Shown in pieces: positions 25,322 to 35,256 of a stretch of 38,120 bases of DNA. Where the stretch lies: the NCBI GenBank assembly GCA_016744925.1, contig JADGDJ010000016.1, positions 1 to 38,120 on the forward strand, read 5' to 3'. The number at the start of each line of letters is the position of its first letter. Positions within the stretch are counted from its first letter, which is position 1. Below the pieces are notes generated by a model. It worked only from the letters and a program-made list of their open reading frames with translations, was not told where the DNA came from and made no database searches. Origin of the DNA: Spirochaetaceae bacterium (GTDB lineage: Bacteria; Spirochaetota; Spirochaetia; DSM-2461). The position numbers and the translations under genes are program-made.

Positions 25322-26011
25322 TTATTTAATAAATTTGTATCCTCGACCCCTTATGGTTAGAATATGCTTTGGAATGTCCGACTCGGATAGTTTCTGCCTG
25401 ATTTTCGCAATGTGTACATCGACGGTCCTCGAAGATGTTTCAGAATCATAACCCCATACTTCATCGAGCATTTTATCTCTTTGTATAATCTTACTATGGT
25501 GAAGCAGCATATACTCGAGTAGCCTGTATTCCTGCCCATTTAAAGGGATTTCTTTCTCATTCGAAAAGAGTTCTCCCTTTTCCCTGTCCAGTGTAAAATT
25601 ACCAAAAGTGATCACAGAAGTATCCCTGTTGGAAGAGGTCCCATTCAATTGAGACCGACGAATCAGCGCTCCAACCCTTGCAAGAAGCACTGACATGTCA
25701 AATGGTTTTGCCATGTAATCGTCAGCGCCCTGCCTCAGTCCCAGTACGGTATCCAGGTTGGTATTTCTGGCTGTGAGCATTAAAACGGGAGTCGATATTC
25801 CTGCTTTTCGGATATTCTCGCAAACCGCATATCCATCTCTTCCGGGAAGCATAATATCCAGTAATATGGCATCAAATTTTTCTGCTCTTGCTGTTTGTTC
25901 CCCTGAAATTCCATCGCCTCTGATTGTTACTTCATAACCTTCGGCTTTTAATCTGTCTTCCAATGTCATCTGAACACCCGGTTCATCTTCTATTATCAAT
26001 ATTTTATTCAT
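25322..26011 (-). CDS. OmpR/PhoB-family response regulator
   Basis: The 229-residue regulator has a receiver domain (acidic pocket E8-D9, phospho-acceptor Asp52 in LLDIMLPGRDG, Thr/Ala switch in LMLTARN, Lys in YMAKPFDMSVLL near 105) and a C-terminal winged helix, residues about 135-229, with LNGQEYRLLEYML, DEVWGYDSETSSRTVDVHIAKIRQKL and IRGRGYKFIK. GGAG sits 8 nt before the ATG, and the kinase stop is only 3 nt upstream, so the pair is one operon. Regulators of this family bind direct repeats spaced about 10-11 bp. The TTTACA arrays at 27786-27822 and 29093-29129 fit that exactly and are the likely targets. Confidence 0.95.
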   Translation of the reverse strand: MNKILIIEDEPGVQMTLEDRLKAEGYEVTIRGDGISGEQTARAEKFDAILLDIMLPGRDGYAVCENIRKAGISTPVLMLTARNTNLDTVLGLRQGADDYMAKPFDMSVLLARVGALIRRSQLNGTSSNRDTSVITFGNFTLDREKGELFSNEKEIPLNGQEYRLLEYMLLHHSKIIQRDKMLDEVWGYDSETSSRTVDVHIAKIRQKLSESDIPKHILTIRGRGYKFIK

Positions 26012-26014
26012 GAA

Positions 26015-27721
26015 TTATTCTCCGCTGTTTATACTGTAGTAGGGGATTTTTAATGTGAAGCGGCACCCCTTTTTCAACCGACCATCAACTCTCTCATAAG
26101 GGCTGGTAAGTTTAAGTGAGCCCCCGAGCAATCGTGCTTTTCTCATGGATAGGTAGAGACCCAGGCCACTTCCCTTAATTTGTTCCTTCAGACTTTTCTT
26201 CCCTCTGTAGAATGGATCATATATATGTTTTCTATCAATTTTGTCTATGCCCGAACCATCGTCTTCTACCGTAAATAAAAGTGTGTGGGGCAGTTGGACA
26301 TGTCCCGTAACCCTTATTTCTCCTTTTGTCTCTAAGTTGTAAGCATGTTTTGCACTATTGGAAATAAGATTGGTCAGTATCATTTCTAAAGTTTCTCTAT
26401 CCGAAAGAGCTTCATCCGGTAGAGACCTGAAATCGATTTTTATAATTTTATTCATCTCTTTTTCAAGTGAGTGAGAAAATATAATCAGGTTGTCATTAAT
26501 TTCTGAAAAAATAATTTTTTGTGTCTGAGGAGCCCGTTCCGCTTTACCCTCTAGTCTGGAAAACAGGAGAATTCCTTCAATCATGGAAGCAAGACGTGTC
26601 GATTGATCGGTTATCAACCCTCCATACTGTTTTATCCTGTCTGGTGAGAGTATCCCGTTTTTGATGTTATCCGCTGCAGCGTTAATCACTGTCAGGGGAG
26701 TTCTCAGTTCATGAGTGACTGTGGCTACAAATTCTTTTTCCCTCTGTCTCATCCGCCTGAGATGATTAATCTGAGCGAGTATCACTATATAGGCAATACC
26801 AATTCCTATGATCAGCAACAGGCTCATCAACCATTGAATTGTCAGAACAACTTCTCTTTCTTTAATCAGGGATTTTCCCCCGGAAAGGACATCGACATAA
26901 ACTGTCGGGATGGGCAGTGTCTCCTGGGGAGGTTTATCACGGTTAAACTTTAATTTAAACATTTTGTTCTCATCTTCGTTAAAAATGATCACTTGAAGAG
27001 GTATTTCTATAAGCCATGGTTTCTGAGTCGAGGTCAGTGCTTCCCCTATAATCCGGAAAGGAGAGTAATGATAATCAGTGTCTACGAGGCTGGTCACTTC
27101 TCCTGTTAAATCATAATGCCATTTAAGTTGATAGTTACTTTCGCTGTTCAGCTGTGATTGTTCTATTTCATTCTGATAAAAAGAGAGTATGTCAAATTGA
27201 AAAAAAATAGCATTTTTATCTGCCTTGTCAATCGGTGGCAGAGGTGTGCTAATCCAGACTTTCCCTCTGTCGAATTTATCGGGTATCAAAGAGATTCTTC
27301 TCGGATCATCTGCCATCTCTTCAGGAACCAATTCACTTGTTTCCCATCCATCCTCTGTGTACACATTGTATGTACTTGAATGTTCAGTCGTAAAAGAATA
27401 GGAGATCGAGGTCATGTATCTTTTGTCAAAAGTGGAAATTCCCGCTTCGAACAAATAGACAACCCGCTCCTGAAGGTCTTCTTCACTAGACAGATCTCTG
27501 AAATACTCAAAACGATCACCAAGAAATGGGAAGAAGGAAAACTGTTCTGAAATAGCGGCTTGAATCCTGTAGGAAAAGTTCCTATATAGCTCGGTAAGGT
27601 TTTTTTCAGCGGAAGAGGTTACCCACCGGTATTGTATTGTTGATAGGATAATAAGTGCTATGACAACAATAGTCGCTGAAACCCTGCTGAATATTTTACT
27701 GCTCGTAGATGTGCCTATCAT
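26015..27721 (-). CDS. Sensor histidine kinase (HisKA type)
   Basis: The 568-residue inner-membrane kinase has one span at about residues 13-31, a large periplasmic sensor of about 260 residues, and a second span at about 294-314 (LMSLLLIIGIGIAYIVILAQI). Next come the HisKA domain (TVTHELRTPLTVINAAADN, phospho-acceptor His337) and the ATPase domain with the N-box LISNSAKHAYN near 455, VEDDGSGIDKID near 485 and GSGLGLYLSMRKA near 520. The sensor domain is not one I recognise. There is no ribosome site: ATG 27721 lies 7 nt after a TATACT -10, so translation is probably leaderless. It is divergent from the FliB-like gene. Confidence 0.94.
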   Translation of the reverse strand: MIGTSTSSKIFSRVSATIVVIALIILSTIQYRWVTSSAEKNLTELYRNFSYRIQAAISEQFSFFPFLGDRFEYFRDLSSEEDLQERVVYLFEAGISTFDKRYMTSISYSFTTEHSSTYNVYTEDGWETSELVPEEMADDPRRISLIPDKFDRGKVWISTPLPPIDKADKNAIFFQFDILSFYQNEIEQSQLNSESNYQLKWHYDLTGEVTSLVDTDYHYSPFRIIGEALTSTQKPWLIEIPLQVIIFNEDENKMFKLKFNRDKPPQETLPIPTVYVDVLSGGKSLIKEREVVLTIQWLMSLLLIIGIGIAYIVILAQINHLRRMRQREKEFVATVTHELRTPLTVINAAADNIKNGILSPDRIKQYGGLITDQSTRLASMIEGILLFSRLEGKAERAPQTQKIIFSEINDNLIIFSHSLEKEMNKIIKIDFRSLPDEALSDRETLEMILTNLISNSAKHAYNLETKGEIRVTGHVQLPHTLLFTVEDDGSGIDKIDRKHIYDPFYRGKKSLKEQIKGSGLGLYLSMRKARLLGGSLKLTSPYERVDGRLKKGCRFTLKIPYYSINSGE

Positions 27722-27728
27722 AGAGATA

Positions 27729-27757
27729 AGTATAACTTATGTTTATTTTACTGACGA
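27729..27757 (-). promoter_or_regulatory. Kinase/regulator promoter, apparently leaderless
   Basis: On the minus strand TCGTCA (27752-27757, 4 of 6) and TATACT (27729-27734, 5 of 6) are 17 nt apart. Only 7 nt separate the -10 from ATG 27721. The TTTACA array begins 28 nt upstream of the -35, placed well for autoregulation. Confidence 0.5.
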
Positions 27758-27785: not shown

Positions 27786-27822
27786 TTTACAAAGTTTACA
27801 ATAGTTTTACAATGGATTTACT
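27786..27822 (+). promoter_or_regulatory. Four-part TTTACA array, copy 1 (candidate response-regulator site)
   Basis: TTTACA begins at 27786, 27795 and 27806, and TTTACT at 27817, giving spacings of 9, 11 and 11. The same spacing recurs at 29093-29129, with 30 of 40 aligned bases identical. The reverse complement TGTAAA at 11-bp spacing resembles the direct-repeat boxes of OmpR-family regulators such as WalR and CpxR. It sits between the kinase promoter and the FliB-like gene. Confidence 0.7.
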
Positions 27823-27914
27823 CTTCTACTCTTTCATTTGAAACGGGGACATTATTTTGAAAGTCTGGTAAAATTACTATTCCGGGATTAATGGGGAGGA
27901 CGAATAAATACATC

Positions 27915-29090
27915 ATGAAGAAAATGACCAGGATTTTAAGCCCATCTTATTTAAAGAATTTTAAGTGTATAGGCAGTGAATGTGAGGATAGCTGTTGCAT
28001 CGGATGGGATATCGATATAGATAAACTCACTTACAGGAGATATTTTCGTACCAAAGATACGCAGATGAAGAAAGCATTTGTCGAACATGTCTATAAAAAT
28101 GATGATAGTGATTGCGATGAGATTGATTATGGGCGAGTGAGGATCAATGAAAAGAAATGGTGTCCTTTTCTGAATAAAGAGAAACTCTGCAATATTTACA
28201 GCAATTTAGGTGAAGACTATTTATCCAATGTCTGTTACTCCTTCCCGAGAGTGTACAATATCATCGATAATGTTTACGAATGTTCACTCTATATGTCCTG
28301 TCCCGAAGCGGTGAGACAGATGTTGTCCAATGATGAACCCATAAAATTTGTAGAAGAAGATGTTTTTCTTGAAAAATACATCATTCAGAGTTTCCTCGAT
28401 TCAAAAGAGAGTCAATGGAAAAATTCTCCTCTTCGAAAACTGAAGGAGATCCGCTCACTATCCATAGGAATTGTACAGGACAGAAAAATTTCACTTTCCC
28501 GGAGGCTTTTGCGGCTGGGTACAAGGCTGAGTGAAATATCCTCTCCGAAAGATCTGCAGGAAAAGAGTTGTTTAAATATTTCTGATTATTATACTTTTCA
28601 GATGGGATTTTTTAAAAAAGCCGTCGATTCTCTTCATGTTTTTACTGAAATTGATAGTGATGTTTTTATTGAACTCACAGGGATGCTTCACCGGGGATTT
28701 CTTCTGGATGAAAATATTGCCCTCACTGAAAAAGCAAAGTTGTACAGGAAAGCTCGGGAAACCATTGTAGAACCTTTCCTGAAATCAAATTCCTATATCT
28801 TCGAGCATTACCTTGTGAATTTTATGTTTCAGGGAAATTTTCCTTTTACAGAAAATGAGAGTGCTTTTGAAGGATATCTCATGATAATCGCCAGATATGC
28901 ACTCATGAAATTTTATCTTGCCGGTATAGGGTCTGTAAACGGTACAATAAATAAAGAAGATGTTGTTCTGGTCATTCAAGCTTTTACGAAAACTGTGGAA
29001 CACCATAGAACATTTATATTTGACCTCTTAGAAGATATAAAACAGAGAGAATTTGATAATATGGAGTTTATCACTCTGCTTTTGAAATAG
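27915..29090 (+). CDS. fliB: FliB-like lysine-N-methylase, Cys-rich
   Basis: The roughly 391-residue protein matches the FliB family, named for methylation of flagellin lysines. It has a cysteine-rich N-terminal half: LKNFKCIGSECEDSCCIGWDIDID, then WCPFLNKEKLCNIY near 95, LSNVCYSFPRV near 120 and ECSLYMSCPEAVRQML near 135. The cysteines probably bind an iron-sulfur cluster or metal. The C-terminal half is helical and poorly conserved. The start is uncertain: ATG 27915 and 27924 match the usual N-terminus, while ATG 27891 adds MGRTNKYI. GGGGAGG at 27893-27899 is 15 nt from 27915. No flagellar gene is nearby; it sits between the kinase/regulator pair and an export operon, so its target may not be flagellin. 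Confidence 0.85.
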   Translation: MKKMTRILSPSYLKNFKCIGSECEDSCCIGWDIDIDKLTYRRYFRTKDTQMKKAFVEHVYKNDDSDCDEIDYGRVRINEKKWCPFLNKEKLCNIYSNLGEDYLSNVCYSFPRVYNIIDNVYECSLYMSCPEAVRQMLSNDEPIKFVEEDVFLEKYIIQSFLDSKESQWKNSPLRKLKEIRSLSIGIVQDRKISLSRRLLRLGTRLSEISSPKDLQEKSCLNISDYYTFQMGFFKKAVDSLHVFTEIDSDVFIELTGMLHRGFLLDENIALTEKAKLYRKARETIVEPFLKSNSYIFEHYLVNFMFQGNFPFTENESAFEGYLMIIARYALMKFYLAGIGSVNGTINKEDVVLVIQAFTKTVEHHRTFIFDLLEDIKQREFDNMEFITLLLK

Positions 29091-29092
29091 AT

Positions 29093-29129
29093 TTTACATA
29101 GTTTACAATCCTTTTACATAGAATTAACC
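29093..29129 (+). promoter_or_regulatory. Four-part TTTACA array, copy 2 (upstream of export operon)
   Basis: TTTACA begins at 29093, 29102 and 29113, and TTAACC at 29124, giving spacings of 9, 11 and 11 as in copy 1. It starts 2 nt after the FliB-like stop. The fourth element lies where a -35 would be for the TATATT at 29150, an arrangement typical of activation by OmpR-family regulators. Confidence 0.72.
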
Positions 29130-29149: not shown

Positions 29150-29155
29150 TATATT
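29150..29155 (+). promoter_or_regulatory. Possible -10 of the export operon
   Basis: TATATT matches 5 of 6 consensus bases. The -35 position (about 29127-29132, ACCACG) is poor and overlaps the last TTTACA-type element, which suggests an activator-dependent promoter. A leader of about 125 nt would result. An alternative pair, TTGAAT at 29200 with AATCAT at 29222, is also possible. Confidence 0.4.
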
Positions 29156-29265: not shown

Positions 29266-29298
29266 ATGTGCCACCTAGGAGGAACATATGGCATCTGA
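29266..29298 (+). CDS. Possible 10-codon leader ORF overlapping the adaptor start
   Basis: ATG 29266 has its own AGGAG 3 nt upstream (29258-29262) and reads MCHLGGTYGI then TGA. It is out of frame with, and overlaps, the adaptor start at 29288, and its codons contain the AGGAGG ribosome site of the adaptor. Translating it could block or couple adaptor initiation. It may equally be chance. Confidence 0.25.
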   Translation: MCHLGGTYGI

Positions 29299-30580
29299 AA
29301 GAAAAATAATACAGGTTGAGGATTCAGCCCCATTAATTTCAAAAAAAAAGAAAAAGCAGGCGATTGTTACGGGAGTTATTCTCGCTGGAATTATCGGGCT
29401 GGTCATTCTTATCATTGGACTCAAGTCCTCTCAGAATATCACAGTTATTGGCGATTACACCTTAGCAAAAGTCTCTTCGGAATCGTTAACCACATCCACT
29501 GAAGCCAGTGGTACAGTAGTTCTACCGACTCAAGTATCCATCGTGAGTATGGAAGAGGGCTATGCCAAAGAACTATTGGTCAACGAAGGTGATTCTGTCA
29601 CTGATGCCACCATTTTGGCAGTACTTGACGTGCCTGAGCTGGAAGAGGACAGGGATGACCTGGCTCTTGAGCTGGAAACTGAAAAAATTGGACTCGAAGA
29701 GATTCATTTGGATTTTGAATATACAATTAAAGAGCTGAATATAGATTTGGACCGGATAAACGATGATATTGCCGAAGCGGGATATGATGTGGATGCGGAA
29801 AAGGAACTTCTCAACCTTAAAAGCTCCCGTCTTTCAGAATACGAAGATGCCGTCGATATACTTGATGCCCTATTAGAGGAAAAAGAAGATCTTGTTTTCA
29901 GTATAGAGAAAGAAACCCGTGGCAATGAACTGAATATCAGGAAACAGATAGCCTTGATCAATCAGCTGAACGTAAGTCTTCGTCGAGTTGAGCAGGATAT
30001 TGCGGATTCTCAAATAACCAGTCCCATTGCCGGAGATGTGCTCAGTCTTAATGAAGATCTGACGGTTCCTGGAAGTCTTATCGAGGAGAGCACGGCTCTT
30101 TTTACAATTGCCAATACAGAAGATGTCTATATCGATCTCGAAGTATACGAACAGTATAGTTCTTATCTGGAAATCGGAGGAACGATGGATCTTGTCATCA
30201 GTTCCACCTTGATAGAAGCGGAAATTACACAGATCGGTCAAATTGCTTCTCTTTCTTCAGACGGATTAGCAGCCACCATCTCTGTAAGGGCGAAACCGCT
30301 GGATGTGACAGATTTGACTCCCGGCGCCTCTGCAGTAGCTGATATCCCTCTGGGTACGAAAGAAAACGCTCTCATATTGCCCAGAGGTTCCTATCTGACC
30401 ACTGGAAATCAGAAATATGTCTACAAAATCGATGGATCTGAAGCGTATAAAACAGAAGTTGTCTTTGGTGAAATGCAGGGAAGTCAGGTTGAAGTTCTCA
30501 GCGGACTTAAAGCCGGTGACCAGATAATAATCAGTTCTTATCAGAACTTTATCAATCAGGACGTCATTGAAATAAAATAG
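29288..30580 (+). CDS. MacA/HlyD-like periplasmic adaptor
   Basis: The 430-residue membrane-fusion protein links an inner-membrane ABC exporter to an outer-membrane channel. It has a Lys-rich cytoplasmic start, one span (about residues 28-48), a split lipoyl domain (STEASGTVVLPTQVSIVSMEEGYAKELLVNEGD near 75, and ITSPIAGDVLSLNEDL near 240), a long coiled-coil hairpin between them (about 120-235), then beta-barrel and membrane-proximal domains ending in LKAGDQIIISSYQNF. AGGAGG lies 5 nt before the ATG. It heads an operon with an ABC ATPase, two permeases and a TolC-like protein. Confidence 0.92.
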   Translation: MASERKIIQVEDSAPLISKKKKKQAIVTGVILAGIIGLVILIIGLKSSQNITVIGDYTLAKVSSESLTTSTEASGTVVLPTQVSIVSMEEGYAKELLVNEGDSVTDATILAVLDVPELEEDRDDLALELETEKIGLEEIHLDFEYTIKELNIDLDRINDDIAEAGYDVDAEKELLNLKSSRLSEYEDAVDILDALLEEKEDLVFSIEKETRGNELNIRKQIALINQLNVSLRRVEQDIADSQITSPIAGDVLSLNEDLTVPGSLIEESTALFTIANTEDVYIDLEVYEQYSSYLEIGGTMDLVISSTLIEAEITQIGQIASLSSDGLAATISVRAKPLDVTDLTPGASAVADIPLGTKENALILPRGSYLTTGNQKYVYKIDGSEAYKTEVVFGEMQGSQVEVLSGLKAGDQIIISSYQNFINQDVIEIK

Positions 30581-30602: not shown

Positions 30603-31298
30603 ATGATTCAATTAAACGGAATTAGTAAATTATATGACTTAGGTGAAACAAAAGTAAATGCTCTTAAAGATGTCAATCTGACAATAAACAGGGGGGAATA
30701 TGTTGCTATAATGGGACCTTCCGGTTCCGGGAAATCGACACTGATGCATATTCTAGGAATACTCGATACGGTCTCTGGAGGTCAGTATCTACTGGAGGAC
30801 TACGATATTACATCGCTACCCGATAAGGAACAGGCTAGAATCAGAAACAAACATTTTGGTTTTATATTTCAAAGTTTTAACCTCTTTCCCGAACTCAGTG
30901 CCCTGGAAAATGTCATGCTTCCCATGAGCTATGGGGGCATCTCATATAAAAACAGACGATCCAGAGCCCAGGAACTGCTCGAAGATGTGGGTCTTGCGCA
31001 CAGGATGTATCATCTTCCCACAATGATGAGTGGTGGAGAGCAGCAGAGAGTGGCCATTGCACGATCGCTTTCGAATGATCCCGATCTTATTCTTGCTGAT
31101 GAACCTACGGGAAATCTTCCCTCTGACAAAGGTGAAGAGATAATGACTATGCTGGAAAAACTCAATGATAAAGGTGTCACTGTCGTTATGGTTACTCATA
31201 ACCCGGAGCAGGGGAATCGAGCTAAAAGAAAAATTTCTATCAAAGACGGACTCCTGCACAAAGATGAAATTGTAGTAAAAGAGGCTTTCAATGGCTAA
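30603..31298 (+). CDS. ABC exporter ATPase, MacB/LolD type
   Basis: The 231-residue ATPase has Walker [10 protein letters not shown] near residue 39, Q-loop [22 protein letters not shown] near 87, signature [15 protein letters not shown] near 140, Walker [12 protein letters not shown] near 160 and the H-loop VTHNPE near 198. This pattern is the MacB/LolD/FtsE subfamily that drives MacB-type mechanotransmission exporters. AAGGAG precedes the ATG by 7 nt. It is a separate gene rather than fused to the permease as in E. coli MacB. Its stop overlaps the first permease by 8 nt. Confidence 0.95.
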
Positions 31299-32658
31299 TG
31301 AATCTTTTCTTATTATAAAAAGGCGGTTTGTCAACAGACTGCTTGAATCCGGCTTGCTGATTCTGGCCGTCGCCCTCGGTGTGGGTACGGCAGCATCGGG
31401 ATTGTCGCTGCTGCTCCACACAAACGAATACAGCGAAAATATGCTCTCTTCCACTTCTTATAGGGAACTCGTGGTAACAACAAAAGACGACGCAGAAGAC
31501 ATGGAAACTCCTGTGGTGGCAAAAGGTAATGGAGATGATGTTATTCTCACGTCAAAAGATTTGACCGCTGCAGAAATAGTTCCACTGGTTTCTTATGCCT
31601 ATATATCAAATAAGGACAAGTTGAGATTTTTAAACCAGGAGATGATAGAGCGTTTCAGTCAAGATGGTGGACCTGGTGGCGGTGAAAAAGAGTCCGATGA
31701 AATTGATTCTCAAGAGGCTGAGAGGACCGAGAAGTTCGATGAAATGCAGGAGAGCTTGAAAGAGGCCGCTTCTAATCCGGAAATTATCGTTCCTGAAATC
31801 GAAGAGCTCTCAGGTTATGAAATCACTCCACAGTATTTCAGTGCCCATAATCTGGAGACTCAATACGGTAGCCTTTTTACAGAAACAGATATGAATTCTC
31901 TCTCTCGATTTATTGTGCTTGGAGTAAATACTGCAGAATTACTCTCTGAAGAGGGCACTGATATATCCACCCTGATAGGGAAAAAAATCCTCTCATTCGA
32001 TACCTATTATACCATTATCGGTATTCTGGAGGAGAGTGGTTCTCTTGTTGATGACCTCTATTTCACTCCCGATACGGGAAATGTGGGTAATGGCGCTAAT
32101 CAGTTCGGAAGTGACAGTAATAAACAGCTCCGATTTACTGTTTCAGATCCTTCAGATCTCGATGCTACATCAGAACTGCTGACGAACTGGTTTGAAAAAA
32201 CCTATGGAGAAGGGGAATTTGTTATTTCAAATCCCAGAGCTGAGGCGGAGAGACTTGTGAACCGAAACAAGGGGATTAGTCTGCTGATACTCTTTCTTAG
32301 TGTGGCCGGTCTTTTTATCGCATCGGTCAATATTTCTCATATTCTTATGAGCCGCACACTCAGAATGAAAAAACATGTGGGTATACTCAAAGCATTGGGG
32401 GCATCCAATAAAGATATTCTCAAGCTTTTTTCCAGCGAAGCTCTTGTAATCACTCTTATGGGGGCACTGTTGGGTACTGTAATTGCTTTTCCACTGGCAA
32501 ATGCTATGGAGAGTGCCATGGGGCTCGATCAGGGATCCTGGTTGTATATTGGGACTGGAGTTCTTCTTTCCTCATTGCTGACGATGGTCTTTTCTATAAT
32601 CCCGTCATTTCAGAATTCGGGAATTGAAGCCGCTGATGCCATGAGAACAGCGGTTTAA
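31291..32658 (+). CDS. MacB-like ABC exporter permease 1
   Basis: The 455-residue inner-membrane protein has the FtsX/MacB layout: one N-terminal span (LLESGLLILAVALGVGTAAS), a large periplasmic domain of about 280 residues, and three C-terminal spans starting near residue 327 (GISLLILFLSVAGLFIASVNI) with the cytoplasmic RTLRMKKHVGILKALGASNKDIL loop. The periplasmic domain carries a Gly-Pro run followed by a very acidic stretch (GGPGGGEKESDEIDSQEAER near 128) that I do not know from other family members. It probably pairs with the next permease as a heterodimer. Confidence 0.9.
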   Translation: MANESFLIIKRRFVNRLLESGLLILAVALGVGTAASGLSLLLHTNEYSENMLSSTSYRELVVTTKDDAEDMETPVVAKGNGDDVILTSKDLTAAEIVPLVSYAYISNKDKLRFLNQEMIERFSQDGGPGGGEKESDEIDSQEAERTEKFDEMQESLKEAASNPEIIVPEIEELSGYEITPQYFSAHNLETQYGSLFTETDMNSLSRFIVLGVNTAELLSEEGTDISTLIGKKILSFDTYYTIIGILEESGSLVDDLYFTPDTGNVGNGANQFGSDSNKQLRFTVSDPSDLDATSELLTNWFEKTYGEGEFVISNPRAEAERLVNRNKGISLLILFLSVAGLFIASVNISHILMSRTLRMKKHVGILKALGASNKDILKLFSSEALVITLMGALLGTVIAFPLANAMESAMGLDQGSWLYIGTGVLLSSLLTMVFSIIPSFQNSGIEAADAMRTAV

Positions 32659-32669
32659 GGATAAATAAA

Positions 32670-33974
32670 ATGAAAAAATTTCTAACATTATTACTGAGAC
32701 ACTGGGTGAAAACACCTGTGAAAATACTTTTGACAATATCCGCTGTATCTTTAGGAACGGGTATTCTTATTTTGTCTTTCAGCGCCGGCAAAATCCTTGA
32801 TGAGCAAGTGGTCGATAAAATGAATGATAATGGCATTATTGTCAATGTTGTCAATGGTGAATGGTCTGCAGATGGATCTGTTGAAATGGAGAGGCCCAGC
32901 CAGTGGGATTCGAATATTTTTAATAGTTTAATTTCCGATAGCGATTCTATAAGTTCTGCGGCACTCCTCATGAACGACCCATTTACTGAAGTGACTGTTA
33001 ACGGTAAGTCTTATATTCTCCGGAGTTCAGCAGGAACAGATCCTTCCTATTTTGATGTTTATTCCCTTGAGATCATAAGCGGTCTTCCCATGACACAACA
33101 GGATTACGATTCAGGATTTAAAAAAATCTGGATCAGTGAAGAAATGGCTGTAATGCTTTTTGGCTCAGCAGAAAAAGCCATTGGAGGTAAAGTCATTCCT
33201 CCAGGGACCCGATTTCAGAGAGGACCGGGGCGCAGCCAGGATCTGTTGACACAGTATTCGGTTGCAGGAGTTTATGCCGATCCTTCAGAGGTGGCAAGGA
33301 GATCCTATGGGATCAGTGATCTGATCGTACCTTTAACTGCCATGCTCCCCAACGATGATAATGCCAATAGAATGCTGGACTTTATGTCTGGCAAAATGGT
33401 CGTAAAGAGTTCGGAAACATCAGTCGATAAGCTGAACTCGGAGATTTCTCAGATTGTAGAAAACAATTATGGATACGATATAAACCTTCTGGTATGGGAG
33501 GGTACCCCGAAGGGGGAATCTAGCTATATGGAAGAGTTGAGACAGGCGGTTTCCATATTTACTGTCTCTGTCAATATTCTGGGAATCGTTTTGCTCCTGA
33601 CAAGTTCTCTTGGAATTTTCAGTATTATGGTTGTAGAAGCTCTGGGCAAGAAGAGGGAAATTGCTCTTGAGCGCTCTCTTGGAGCTTCGCAGATCAGAGT
33701 CGTTAAAGAGTTCTGGACCTGGTCGATTATGTTAAGCCTAATGGGTGCTGTCATCGGTGTCATTCTGGCATTTATTCTTGCCGGGCCGGTACTGGGAACA
33801 ATGGCGCCTCTCCTGGGAGAATTGTCAGGAAATTTCTCAGAGGCCTCAGGTGTACGATTCACATCAATAGTTGCAGGGTTTCTTCTCGCTTTAGGTTGCG
33901 GTGGAATACTAGGACTGCTCCCGGCATTTTCTGCTGTAAAAGGCAATATCGCCGAAACTTTACGGGAGGTGTAG
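32670..33974 (+). CDS. MacB-like ABC exporter permease 2
   Basis: The 434-residue protein has the same plan as the previous permease: an N-terminal span (residues about 12-33), a periplasmic domain, and three C-terminal spans from about residue 295, with the loop VEALGKKREIALERSLGASQIRVVKEFW. It shares little sequence with permease 1 outside these elements. Two distinct permeases with one ATPase suggest an asymmetric exporter, unlike homodimeric MacB. The stop is 1 nt from the TolC-like start, so the genes are co-translated. Confidence 0.9.
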   Translation: MKKFLTLLLRHWVKTPVKILLTISAVSLGTGILILSFSAGKILDEQVVDKMNDNGIIVNVVNGEWSADGSVEMERPSQWDSNIFNSLISDSDSISSAALLMNDPFTEVTVNGKSYILRSSAGTDPSYFDVYSLEIISGLPMTQQDYDSGFKKIWISEEMAVMLFGSAEKAIGGKVIPPGTRFQRGPGRSQDLLTQYSVAGVYADPSEVARRSYGISDLIVPLTAMLPNDDNANRMLDFMSGKMVVKSSETSVDKLNSEISQIVENNYGYDINLLVWEGTPKGESSYMEELRQAVSIFTVSVNILGIVLLLTSSLGIFSIMVVEALGKKREIALERSLGASQIRVVKEFWTWSIMLSLMGAVIGVILAFILAGPVLGTMAPLLGELSGNFSEASGVRFTSIVAGFLLALGCGGILGLLPAFSAVKGNIAETLREV

Positions 33975-33975
33975 C

Positions 33976-35256
33976 ATGAGAGTTATCCCTTTATTATTTT
34001 TTACTATTTTTATTGTGATTTCTATAGCGGTGCTACACGGTGAGACTCAATTGAAATCTCTTGAAGAAATAGCACTTTATGGTTCAGAACATAATCTGTC
34101 CTATCAATCGAGCCAGATCAGTGTATTAGAGGCTGATGGAGATCGGGTCGGAATGTTGAAGTTGGAAAATACATCAATTGATGTCTATGCCGGTTATGGT
34201 GTATCAGATTTCGATAGCTGGGATCTCAGCTCCACTCTGACCGTTCCAATAATTGAACAGATTAGCCTGGAAGGAAAGATCGAAGAAGATATGAGTGGAA
34301 AAATCGGTTTCACTTTGAGTCCTCTGGAACATTCTTCTGATAGAATCCAGTCTGAAATAAATTATGATTCTGCTCTGCTCAATTCCGAAGGGGCTAGAAT
34401 CAATTCTGAAAATAATGCTGTTTCTGCTGCATTAAATTGGATGGTATCCTATAGAGATTATGAATCTCAGGAGACTCTCGCTTCGATAAAAGAGATAAAT
34501 TACAGTGATGACAAGATCAGATATGAACTGGGAGAGGTCACATTAGATGATCTGCAGGCTTCGCTTATTGAGTGGTCTGAAGCCCGGGTTGAACTCTCTG
34601 ATAAAAGGAAGACATACCAGGATAGCGAAACCAAGCTGCTGGGAGAACTAGGATCAGGCCATGAAGAGGTTACGATAAAAAAGCTCACTCTTGAAGAATT
34701 ACAAAATTCCCTAAGGAGAATACAAGAGAGTTTAGAGCCTGAATCGGGAAACCCTCTCAAAAATAATGATTATCAGATATCTCTTCTCAATGTGAGCAGT
34801 GCAAAGGCTGCAGATAAAAATACCTGGGCCTATGAGCCGGATTTAGAGCTATCAACTTATCTGGACTTTGATAGTGACGGAGAAATGACAGTCAGCGCAG
34901 ATATCAGTTTAACCTTCTCTTTAGATCAGGTTCAGCTTAGAGAAAGCCAAATAAGTGAAATGGAGCTGGAGATATCACTCAAAGAAGCGGAACAGAGCAA
35001 AAATGAAGCTGAGTTGGAATTTCAGCAGATAGTCGATTCAATCAGGAGCACTGAAATTAATAGTGGAATTGCACAATTGGAGCTTGAACAGGCTAATATT
35101 TTACTTTCTGAGGCTGAATTGCTGGAAAAACTGGGTGATTATTCCTCTATAGAATTGGAGGAGATGAGTGTTACACTCTCCCTTGCTGAAAACTCTTATT
35201 TTGAGTCTTTAGCGAATGAATACAATGCCTGGTTAGATTTAAAAGAATATTTATAG
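33976..35256 (+). CDS. TolC-like outer-membrane efflux protein
   Basis: The 426-residue protein has a signal peptide (cleavage probably near residue 22, LHG|E) and two repeats of long alpha-hairpins typical of the TolC/OEP family: LKSLEEIALYGSEHNLSYQSSQIS near 28, a helical pair around 140-220, and a second copy after 265 ending LSLAENSYFESLANEYNAWLDL. The intervening strands (IDVYAGYGVSDFDSWDLSSTLTVP, LELSTYLDFDSDGEMTVSADISLTF) fit the beta-barrel. It completes the exporter with the adaptor, ATPase and permeases. It is shorter than E. coli TolC. A hairpin follows. Confidence 0.85.
   Translation: MRVIPLLFFTIFIVISIAVLHGETQLKSLEEIALYGSEHNLSYQSSQISVLEADGDRVGMLKLENTSIDVYAGYGVSDFDSWDLSSTLTVPIIEQISLEGKIEEDMSGKIGFTLSPLEHSSDRIQSEINYDSALLNSEGARINSENNAVSAALNWMVSYRDYESQETLASIKEINYSDDKIRYELGEVTLDDLQASLIEWSEARVELSDKRKTYQDSETKLLGELGSGHEEVTIKKLTLEELQNSLRRIQESLEPESGNPLKNNDYQISLLNVSSAKAADKNTWAYEPDLELSTYLDFDSDGEMTVSADISLTFSLDQVQLRESQISEMELEISLKEAEQSKNEAELEFQQIVDSIRSTEINSGIAQLELEQANILLSEAELLEKLGDYSSIELEEMSVTLSLAENSYFESLANEYNAWLDLKEYL

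Follow-up and report, generated by a model that had tools for sequence, protein, structure and literature searches.

The two four-box arrays in the window (the whole stretch of 38,120 nucleotides analysed here, from a Spirochaetaceae bacterium) are confirmed as arrays, and their sequences point to a widely conserved DNA switch in spirochaetes that marks the genes of a neighbouring sensor/regulator pair. The best explanation, to which we attach a probability of roughly 0.7, is that they are the operator of the adjacent response regulator, which would activate a MacAB-like exporter, tune its own operon and switch on a small RNA, predicted on contig C345 of the same genome, that would repress the mRNA of a surface protein. 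The features that can be read directly in the DNA are the arrays, their conservation, the promoter geometry, the co-occurrence with the kinase and an antisense match.

The arrays and their neighbourhood

The arrays lie among the following features of the window:

25322..26011, minus strand: OmpR/PhoB-family response regulator, the proposed array binder (Pfam Response_reg and Trans_reg_C)
26015..27721, minus strand: membrane sensor histidine kinase (HisKA and HATPase_c), with an orthologue in exactly the array-bearing genomes
27729..27734, minus strand: predicted -10 of the kinase-regulator operon (TATACT), at a distance of 51 bp from array 1
27786..27822, plus strand: array 1, TTTACA/TTTACA/TTTACA/TTTACT, 9-11-11 spacing, the kinase-side copy with no matching downstream -10
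27891..29090, plus strand: FliB-type flagellin lysine-N-methylase gene (NCBIfam NF038110, 297.8 bits against a cut-off of 85)
29093..29129, plus strand: array 2, TTTACA/TTTACA/TTTACA/TTAACC, 9-11-11 spacing, canonical exporter operator, predicted to span -69 to -33
29150..29155, plus strand: -10 of the exporter operon (TATATT), at offset 57 from the start of array 2, predicted +1 at about 29162
29288..30580, plus strand: periplasmic adaptor, MacA/HlyD-like (HlyD_D23; RND_mfp subfamily above cut-off)
30603..31298, plus strand: ABC ATPase (ABC_tran)
31291..32658, plus strand: MacB-like permease 1 (MacB_PCD and FtsX)
32670..33974, plus strand: MacB-like permease 2 (MacB_PCD and FtsX)
33976..35256, plus strand: TolC-like outer-membrane efflux protein (OEP)

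The first-pass annotation placed the hexamers at 27786, 27795, 27806 and 27817 and again at 29093, 29102, 29113 and 29124, and both these starts and the 9-11-11 spacing are exact. The identity between the arrays, given there as 30 of 40 bases, is actually 29/37 (29/40). The description of all four boxes as TTTACA-type holds for boxes 1-3, which read TTTACA in both arrays, but not for box 4, where array 1 has TTTACT and array 2 has TTAACC. TTAACC is the consensus form of box 4, and array 2 has no mismatches to the four-box consensus, nor to the consensus plus -10.

A three-box pattern of 17 fixed bases has two perfect matches in the window, whereas none with fewer than 3 mismatches appeared in 20 dinucleotide shuffles; thus the arrays are not a product of chance. 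A genome-wide scan had been proposed as a check; in 4.87 Mb (413 contigs) the three-box pattern is perfect at only 3 sites, namely arrays 1 and 2 and the C345 array. A further match in this genome, on C213 and with 1 mismatch, falls within a small gene flanked by tRNA-like sequence and was treated as chance. By eye, this small gene encodes ribosomal protein L33.

Like exporters of the MacAB-TolC type, the operon beyond array 2 brings together an adaptor, an ABC ATPase, MacB/FtsX permeases and an OEP. Unlike them, it has an ATPase that is separate from two permease proteins, and the MacA and MacB equivalog cut-offs are not reached.

Conservation among spirochaetes

The kinase was searched for in 61 genomes, and the loci retrieved were then scanned for arrays. 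In each of the best 16 kinase loci, an array directed away from the kinase lies within approximately 60-100 bp of the start of that gene. With up to 2 mismatches allowed, the four-box pattern gave 43 matches in 20 of the 61 genomes and the reversed-pattern control gave 0. The kinase orthologue is present in 20/61 genomes, and these are exactly the 20 that carry the array (p ~1.6e-16, a value that ignores shared ancestry). In most array-bearing relatives the kinase is adjoined by an orthologue of the regulator, 57-72% identical.

Comparison of the corresponding gaps in related spirochaetes, another check suggested at the outset, shows that the hexamers are kept and that most relatives have a single array in the divergent gap between kinase and exporter, directed towards the exporter. 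These sequences give a clear picture of the probable ancestral layout, with the regulator and kinase running leftwards from one array and the adaptor, ATPase, two permeases and OEP running rightwards. The window departs from the layout of its relatives in having fliB in the gap and one array on either side of it. In G005, the kinase, regulator and exporter are now apart and each retains its own array. G008 has two kinase-regulator pairs, each with an array, one of which faces the exporter (L112, on G008:C372) and the other a CotH gene (L062, on G008:C324).

An exact array scan of some 85,000 species genomes, in which no protein homology was used, returned 31 stretches, 26 of them from spirochaetes; most of the latter have a histidine kinase, a MacA/adaptor gene or both beside the array. 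Exact matches in Lachnospiraceae (L138) and Saprospiraceae (L148, L152) have no kinase or exporter context and were excluded from the site set. One match each in Acidobacteriota (L134) and Blastocatellia (L154) lies upstream of a gene for an exported protein. In the Blastocatellia metagenome-assembled genome, that is, in another phylum, the exact four-box array precedes a CotH gene, as it does in the spirochaete loci L062 and L120.

Other genes preceded by the array encode OEP (L111, L128), CotH (L120, L062), beta-helix (L114, L119) and S-layer-domain (L157) proteins, ferredoxin/ferric-reductase/DUF4405 membrane proteins (L124, L125, L159) and a chemoreceptor (L118). As judged from these predicted products, their common theme is the envelope and the cell surface. 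The array is a marker of a larger predicted regulon, candidate small RNAs included, than the first-pass annotation had envisaged.

Promoter geometry and the type of operator

The consensus of 54 distinct aligned sites is T(-1) TTTACA TAG TTTACA nnnnn TTTACa nnnnn TTAACC. A TAnnnT motif lies exactly 57 bp from the array start in 46/54 sites (against 0-8 sites for any other offset), and the alignment has TCA, the expected start site, at offset 67-69. Together, these place +1 at an offset of about 69 and the array at approximately -69 to -33, with box 4 replacing the -35. Boxes 2, 3 and 4 follow an 11-bp period, with box 4 at -38 to -33 across the 54 sites, as in operators of the OmpR/PhoB type. 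The last element of array 2 had been said to overlap the -35 position of a TATATT, and this is borne out, with box 4 occupying the -35 and TATATT at offset 57. The geometry suggests a class-II activator arrangement, and array 2 fits exactly as the predicted activator operator of the exporter.

On the kinase side, TAnnnT is found 49-50 bp from the array in 18/24 of the relatives' sites (51 bp in the window). Often, no more than ~8-12 nt separate the kinase -10 from the ATG in L060, L061 and L072-L074, which suggests nearly leaderless mRNAs.

That the regulator controls its own operon and the MacAB-like exporter, as had been proposed, is the most likely reading, supported by the co-occurrence of array and kinase, the position in the divergent gap and the fixed promoter geometry. 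The regulator has the receiver and Trans_reg_C domains of the OmpR/PhoB family, and its best-scoring NCBIfam model is PhoB. Neither the PhoB/PhoR equivalogs (188.7 against a cut-off of 296.2 for PhoB; 117.6 against 334.2 for PhoR) nor those of CpxR/CpxA (145 against 341 bits; 69 against 486) are reached by the pair in the window. The regulator, under both the PhoB and the CpxR cut-offs, would work like these proteins but is classed as neither.

The arrays resemble the sites of several known regulators. CpxR recognises GTAAA-N5-GTAAA direct repeats (PMC12802237), which on the other strand are TTTAC repeats like those seen here; unlike CpxR boxes, the arrays have four boxes in a 9-11-11 layout and a TTAACC box at the -35. 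PHO boxes of PhoB and B. subtilis PhoP are tandem 11-nt direct repeats to which the proteins bind head-to-tail (PMC4415409). The present arrays differ from these in their 9-bp step between boxes 1 and 2 and in their targets, which are exporters and surface proteins rather than phosphate genes. In the KdpE site of kdpFABC, a 5-bp spacer lies between the half-sites TTTATA and TTTACA (PMC3264566), a hexamer and spacing almost identical to those of the arrays, although this site has two half-sites, serves potassium transport and works with another type of kinase. No earlier description of this array was found in the open-licence literature.

Array 1 and fliB

The first-pass annotation had grouped the regulator's own operon, fliB and the exporter as a single unit; with fliB under array 1, flagellin methylation would be part of the response. 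The grouping is supported for the own operon and the exporter, but not for fliB. Array 1 is correctly oriented for fliB and lies 69 bp upstream of it, but the slot in which its -10 would be expected reads ACGGGG and its box 4 is degenerate. Moreover, the gap in relatives has no fliB, and no array with 4 or fewer mismatches was found near other fliB homologues; control of fliB by array 1 is thus improbable.

Array 1 lies at the ancestral distance from the kinase, with the kinase -10 51 bp away, and so is best read as a kinase-side copy. Entry of fliB would have split an ancestral single operator region and left this copy behind, and the sequence gives no evidence for control of fliB. The inserted fliB resembles genes from a different genus (60%, 58%) more closely than genes from its own genus (55%, 46%, 44%), and a second copy (49%) is present on C38 of the same genome. 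Horizontal acquisition of fliB is possible.

A candidate small RNA and its predicted target

The C345 array, the third in the genome, is followed by TATATT at offset 57, with no ORF within 330 nt and, ~95 nt on, a terminator made up of a hairpin and T run (AAAAAAGCCG...CGGC, T10). It appears to drive a terminator-ended transcript of ~95 nt with no gene, a predicted RNA having its own promoter and intrinsic terminator, as expected of a small RNA. The sister species G003 has the same kind of ORF-less array locus. The two RNAs differ except for a shared 19-mer, CCGGTAAA(A)CTTTATTTAGA, into which the RNA from the genome under study has a single additional A inserted, as a bulge. The candidate has no match in Rfam.

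In 4/4 genomes of the genus, secreted-protein genes have the complement of the 19-mer, with 0-1 mismatch, 50-53 nt upstream of their ATG, compared with an expectation of ~0.002 such matches per genome. The promoters of these genes have TTCACA-type repeats with an 11-bp period, then a conserved TA(A/C)CAT; the distance from the start of the last box to that of this motif is 26 bp. This is the same geometry as that of the array promoters, and it places +1 at the A just before TCTAAATAAAG. The target +1 was worked out after the antisense match had been seen, and the promoter reading is our own. The complementarity of the RNA reaches its limit at positions 0 to +2 relative to the start predicted for the mRNA.

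In co-folding, the RNA pairs with the 5' end of the mRNA and, via UCUCUUC or CUCU, with the Shine-Dalgarno sequence, and repression is thus the favoured outcome. The predicted pairing has an energy of -17 to -22 kcal/mol, with z between -5.6 and -7.8 relative to shuffled seeds, a complementarity to the target initiation region stronger than chance. Only the seed stands out in this way, as full-length RNAduplex energies of the small RNA with the mRNA do not beat shuffles (z +0.5 to -1.5). In G001 (99% complete), the target leader is kept, but neither a second array nor an antisense copy was found, so the RNA is not the reason for the leader's conservation.

The target genes encode a signal peptide (MKKAFMLVAAIA..PVFA) and, in three of four cases, a terminal Phe. 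No firm match was found in Pfam or the PDB, the one Pfam indication being a sub-threshold OMP_b-brl hit (E 0.029), and the AlphaFold model is unusable (pLDDT 29). From its signal peptide and C-terminus, the target is taken to be a secreted and probably outer-membrane protein. At the target loci (L164, L163, L211, L212), conservation across the genus covers the leader and the signal peptide, whereas the mature proteins diverge strongly (19-27% identical to the first), as if the mature part had been swapped. In L164, a second OmpR-family regulator (162-887) lies just before the target gene (1176), whose promoter has the TTCACA-type 11-bp repeats; these are possibly the second regulator's own operator.

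Porin-repressing small RNAs of the MicF/OmpR type tie an RNA to an envelope regulator and pair with the start region of an outer-membrane-protein mRNA. The predicted C345 RNA is similar in its link to an envelope regulator and in pairing at the mRNA start region. It differs from MicF in having no sequence relation to it, in pairing at the extreme 5' end of the mRNA as well as the Shine-Dalgarno, and in belonging to the Spirochaetota; Hfq (PF17209) was not found in 6/6 genomes, in which positive controls were detected. CpxQ of E. coli is a small-RNA arm of an envelope-stress two-component system (PMC4817254); unlike CpxQ, the C345 RNA has its own promoter and is not derived from a 3' UTR, again with Hfq undetected.

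Candidate array-driven RNAs in other genera

Two predicted array-driven, ORF-less transcripts in Candidatus Thalassospirochaeta sargassi (G048) share a 5' hairpin with an identical loop, GGACAAGTGCTGAG, and a stem whose bases change together. Beyond the hairpin, both have the antisense of RBS-ATGAAAAAA and then a GC-rich terminator. In G054, the array is followed by ACTTTTTTCATACTCC and a terminator, so that antisense to RBS-ATGAAAAAA occurs in three array-driven RNAs of two other genera. For the RNAs of G048 and G054, the search for a long, unique target yielded only the generic RBS-ATGAAAAAA complementarity. They may act on generic MKK starts, or the matches may be due to chance, and the case is weaker than that in the genus under study. 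At L123 (G005), a short predicted transcript comes after an array adjoining a regulator gene, and the loop of its terminator, TTTCCTCC, is anti-Shine-Dalgarno.

Proposed mechanism and alternatives

Once phosphorylated by the kinase, the regulator would bind head-to-tail along the boxes (approximately -69 to -33) and bring RNA polymerase to promoters in which a -10 is present and a -35 is lacking. At array 2 this would activate the MacAB-like exporter, at array 1 it would probably adjust the regulator's own operon, and at C345 it would switch on the ~95-nt small RNA. This RNA would then base-pair with the target mRNA over its first ~15-20 nt and at its Shine-Dalgarno, blocking translation of the secreted, probably outer-membrane, protein. 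We infer binding, activation, transcription of the RNA and repression, as well as the stimulus, which would be envelope stress.

A simpler account is that the arrays are ordinary autoregulatory operators for the exporter and kinase only, that the C345 site is the promoter of a 5' leader or of a decayed gene, and that the antisense match is functionless. Ordinary protein genes do follow most array sites, and the G001 leader is retained with no detectable antisense copy. Nevertheless, a segment of the RNA is kept between two species when its surroundings are not, C345 has a terminator and no downstream ORF of useful length, and similar antisense cores follow arrays in G048 and G054. That the complementarity ends at the predicted mRNA 5' end also speaks against a functionless match, and this account is considered unlikely.

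The remaining alternatives concern the role of the 19-mer and the sign of regulation. The 19-mer could be a DNA-binding site for another regulator at both loci, as it lies beside a promoter in each and DNA sites can work in either orientation. This is the least probable of the readings considered here: RNA pairing could accommodate the 1-base insertion in the middle of the 19-mer of the genome under study, whereas a rigid operator could not, the predicted mRNA start sets the limit of the match, and the anti-Shine-Dalgarno bases that flank the match add predicted pairs. Alternatively, the mRNA 5' end and the Shine-Dalgarno region might pair with each other within the leader, and the small RNA would then activate translation by opening this structure. 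The G000 and G002 leaders are able to fold in this way, but the Shine-Dalgarno is only partly occluded (unpaired probability 0.43-0.8), the G001 and G003 leaders have no such fold, and in co-folding the small RNA itself pairs with the Shine-Dalgarno. Activation is therefore as improbable as control of fliB by array 1, and repression by the RNA is the reading we prefer.

Implications

A broader interpretation, to which we would give even odds, is that a spirochaete envelope two-component system uses a rigid four-box operator to turn on efflux together with antisense small RNAs, which would have arisen independently in at least three genera and would block the translation starts of secreted or outer-membrane proteins without Hfq. 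It would then be a separately evolved counterpart of the Cpx/MicF logic of Proteobacteria. No description of a porin-type small-RNA circuit in spirochaetes was found in the open-licence literature. Together with its -10 at a fixed distance, the operator sharply marks the regulon of a so far uncharacterised two-component system in several spirochaete families, and named candidate small-RNA/mRNA pairs in Spirochaetota are now available for testing. If the pairing is true, bacteria outside the Proteobacteria also remodel their envelope by coupling the induction of efflux to an RNA-mediated shutdown of surface proteins, perhaps without Hfq.
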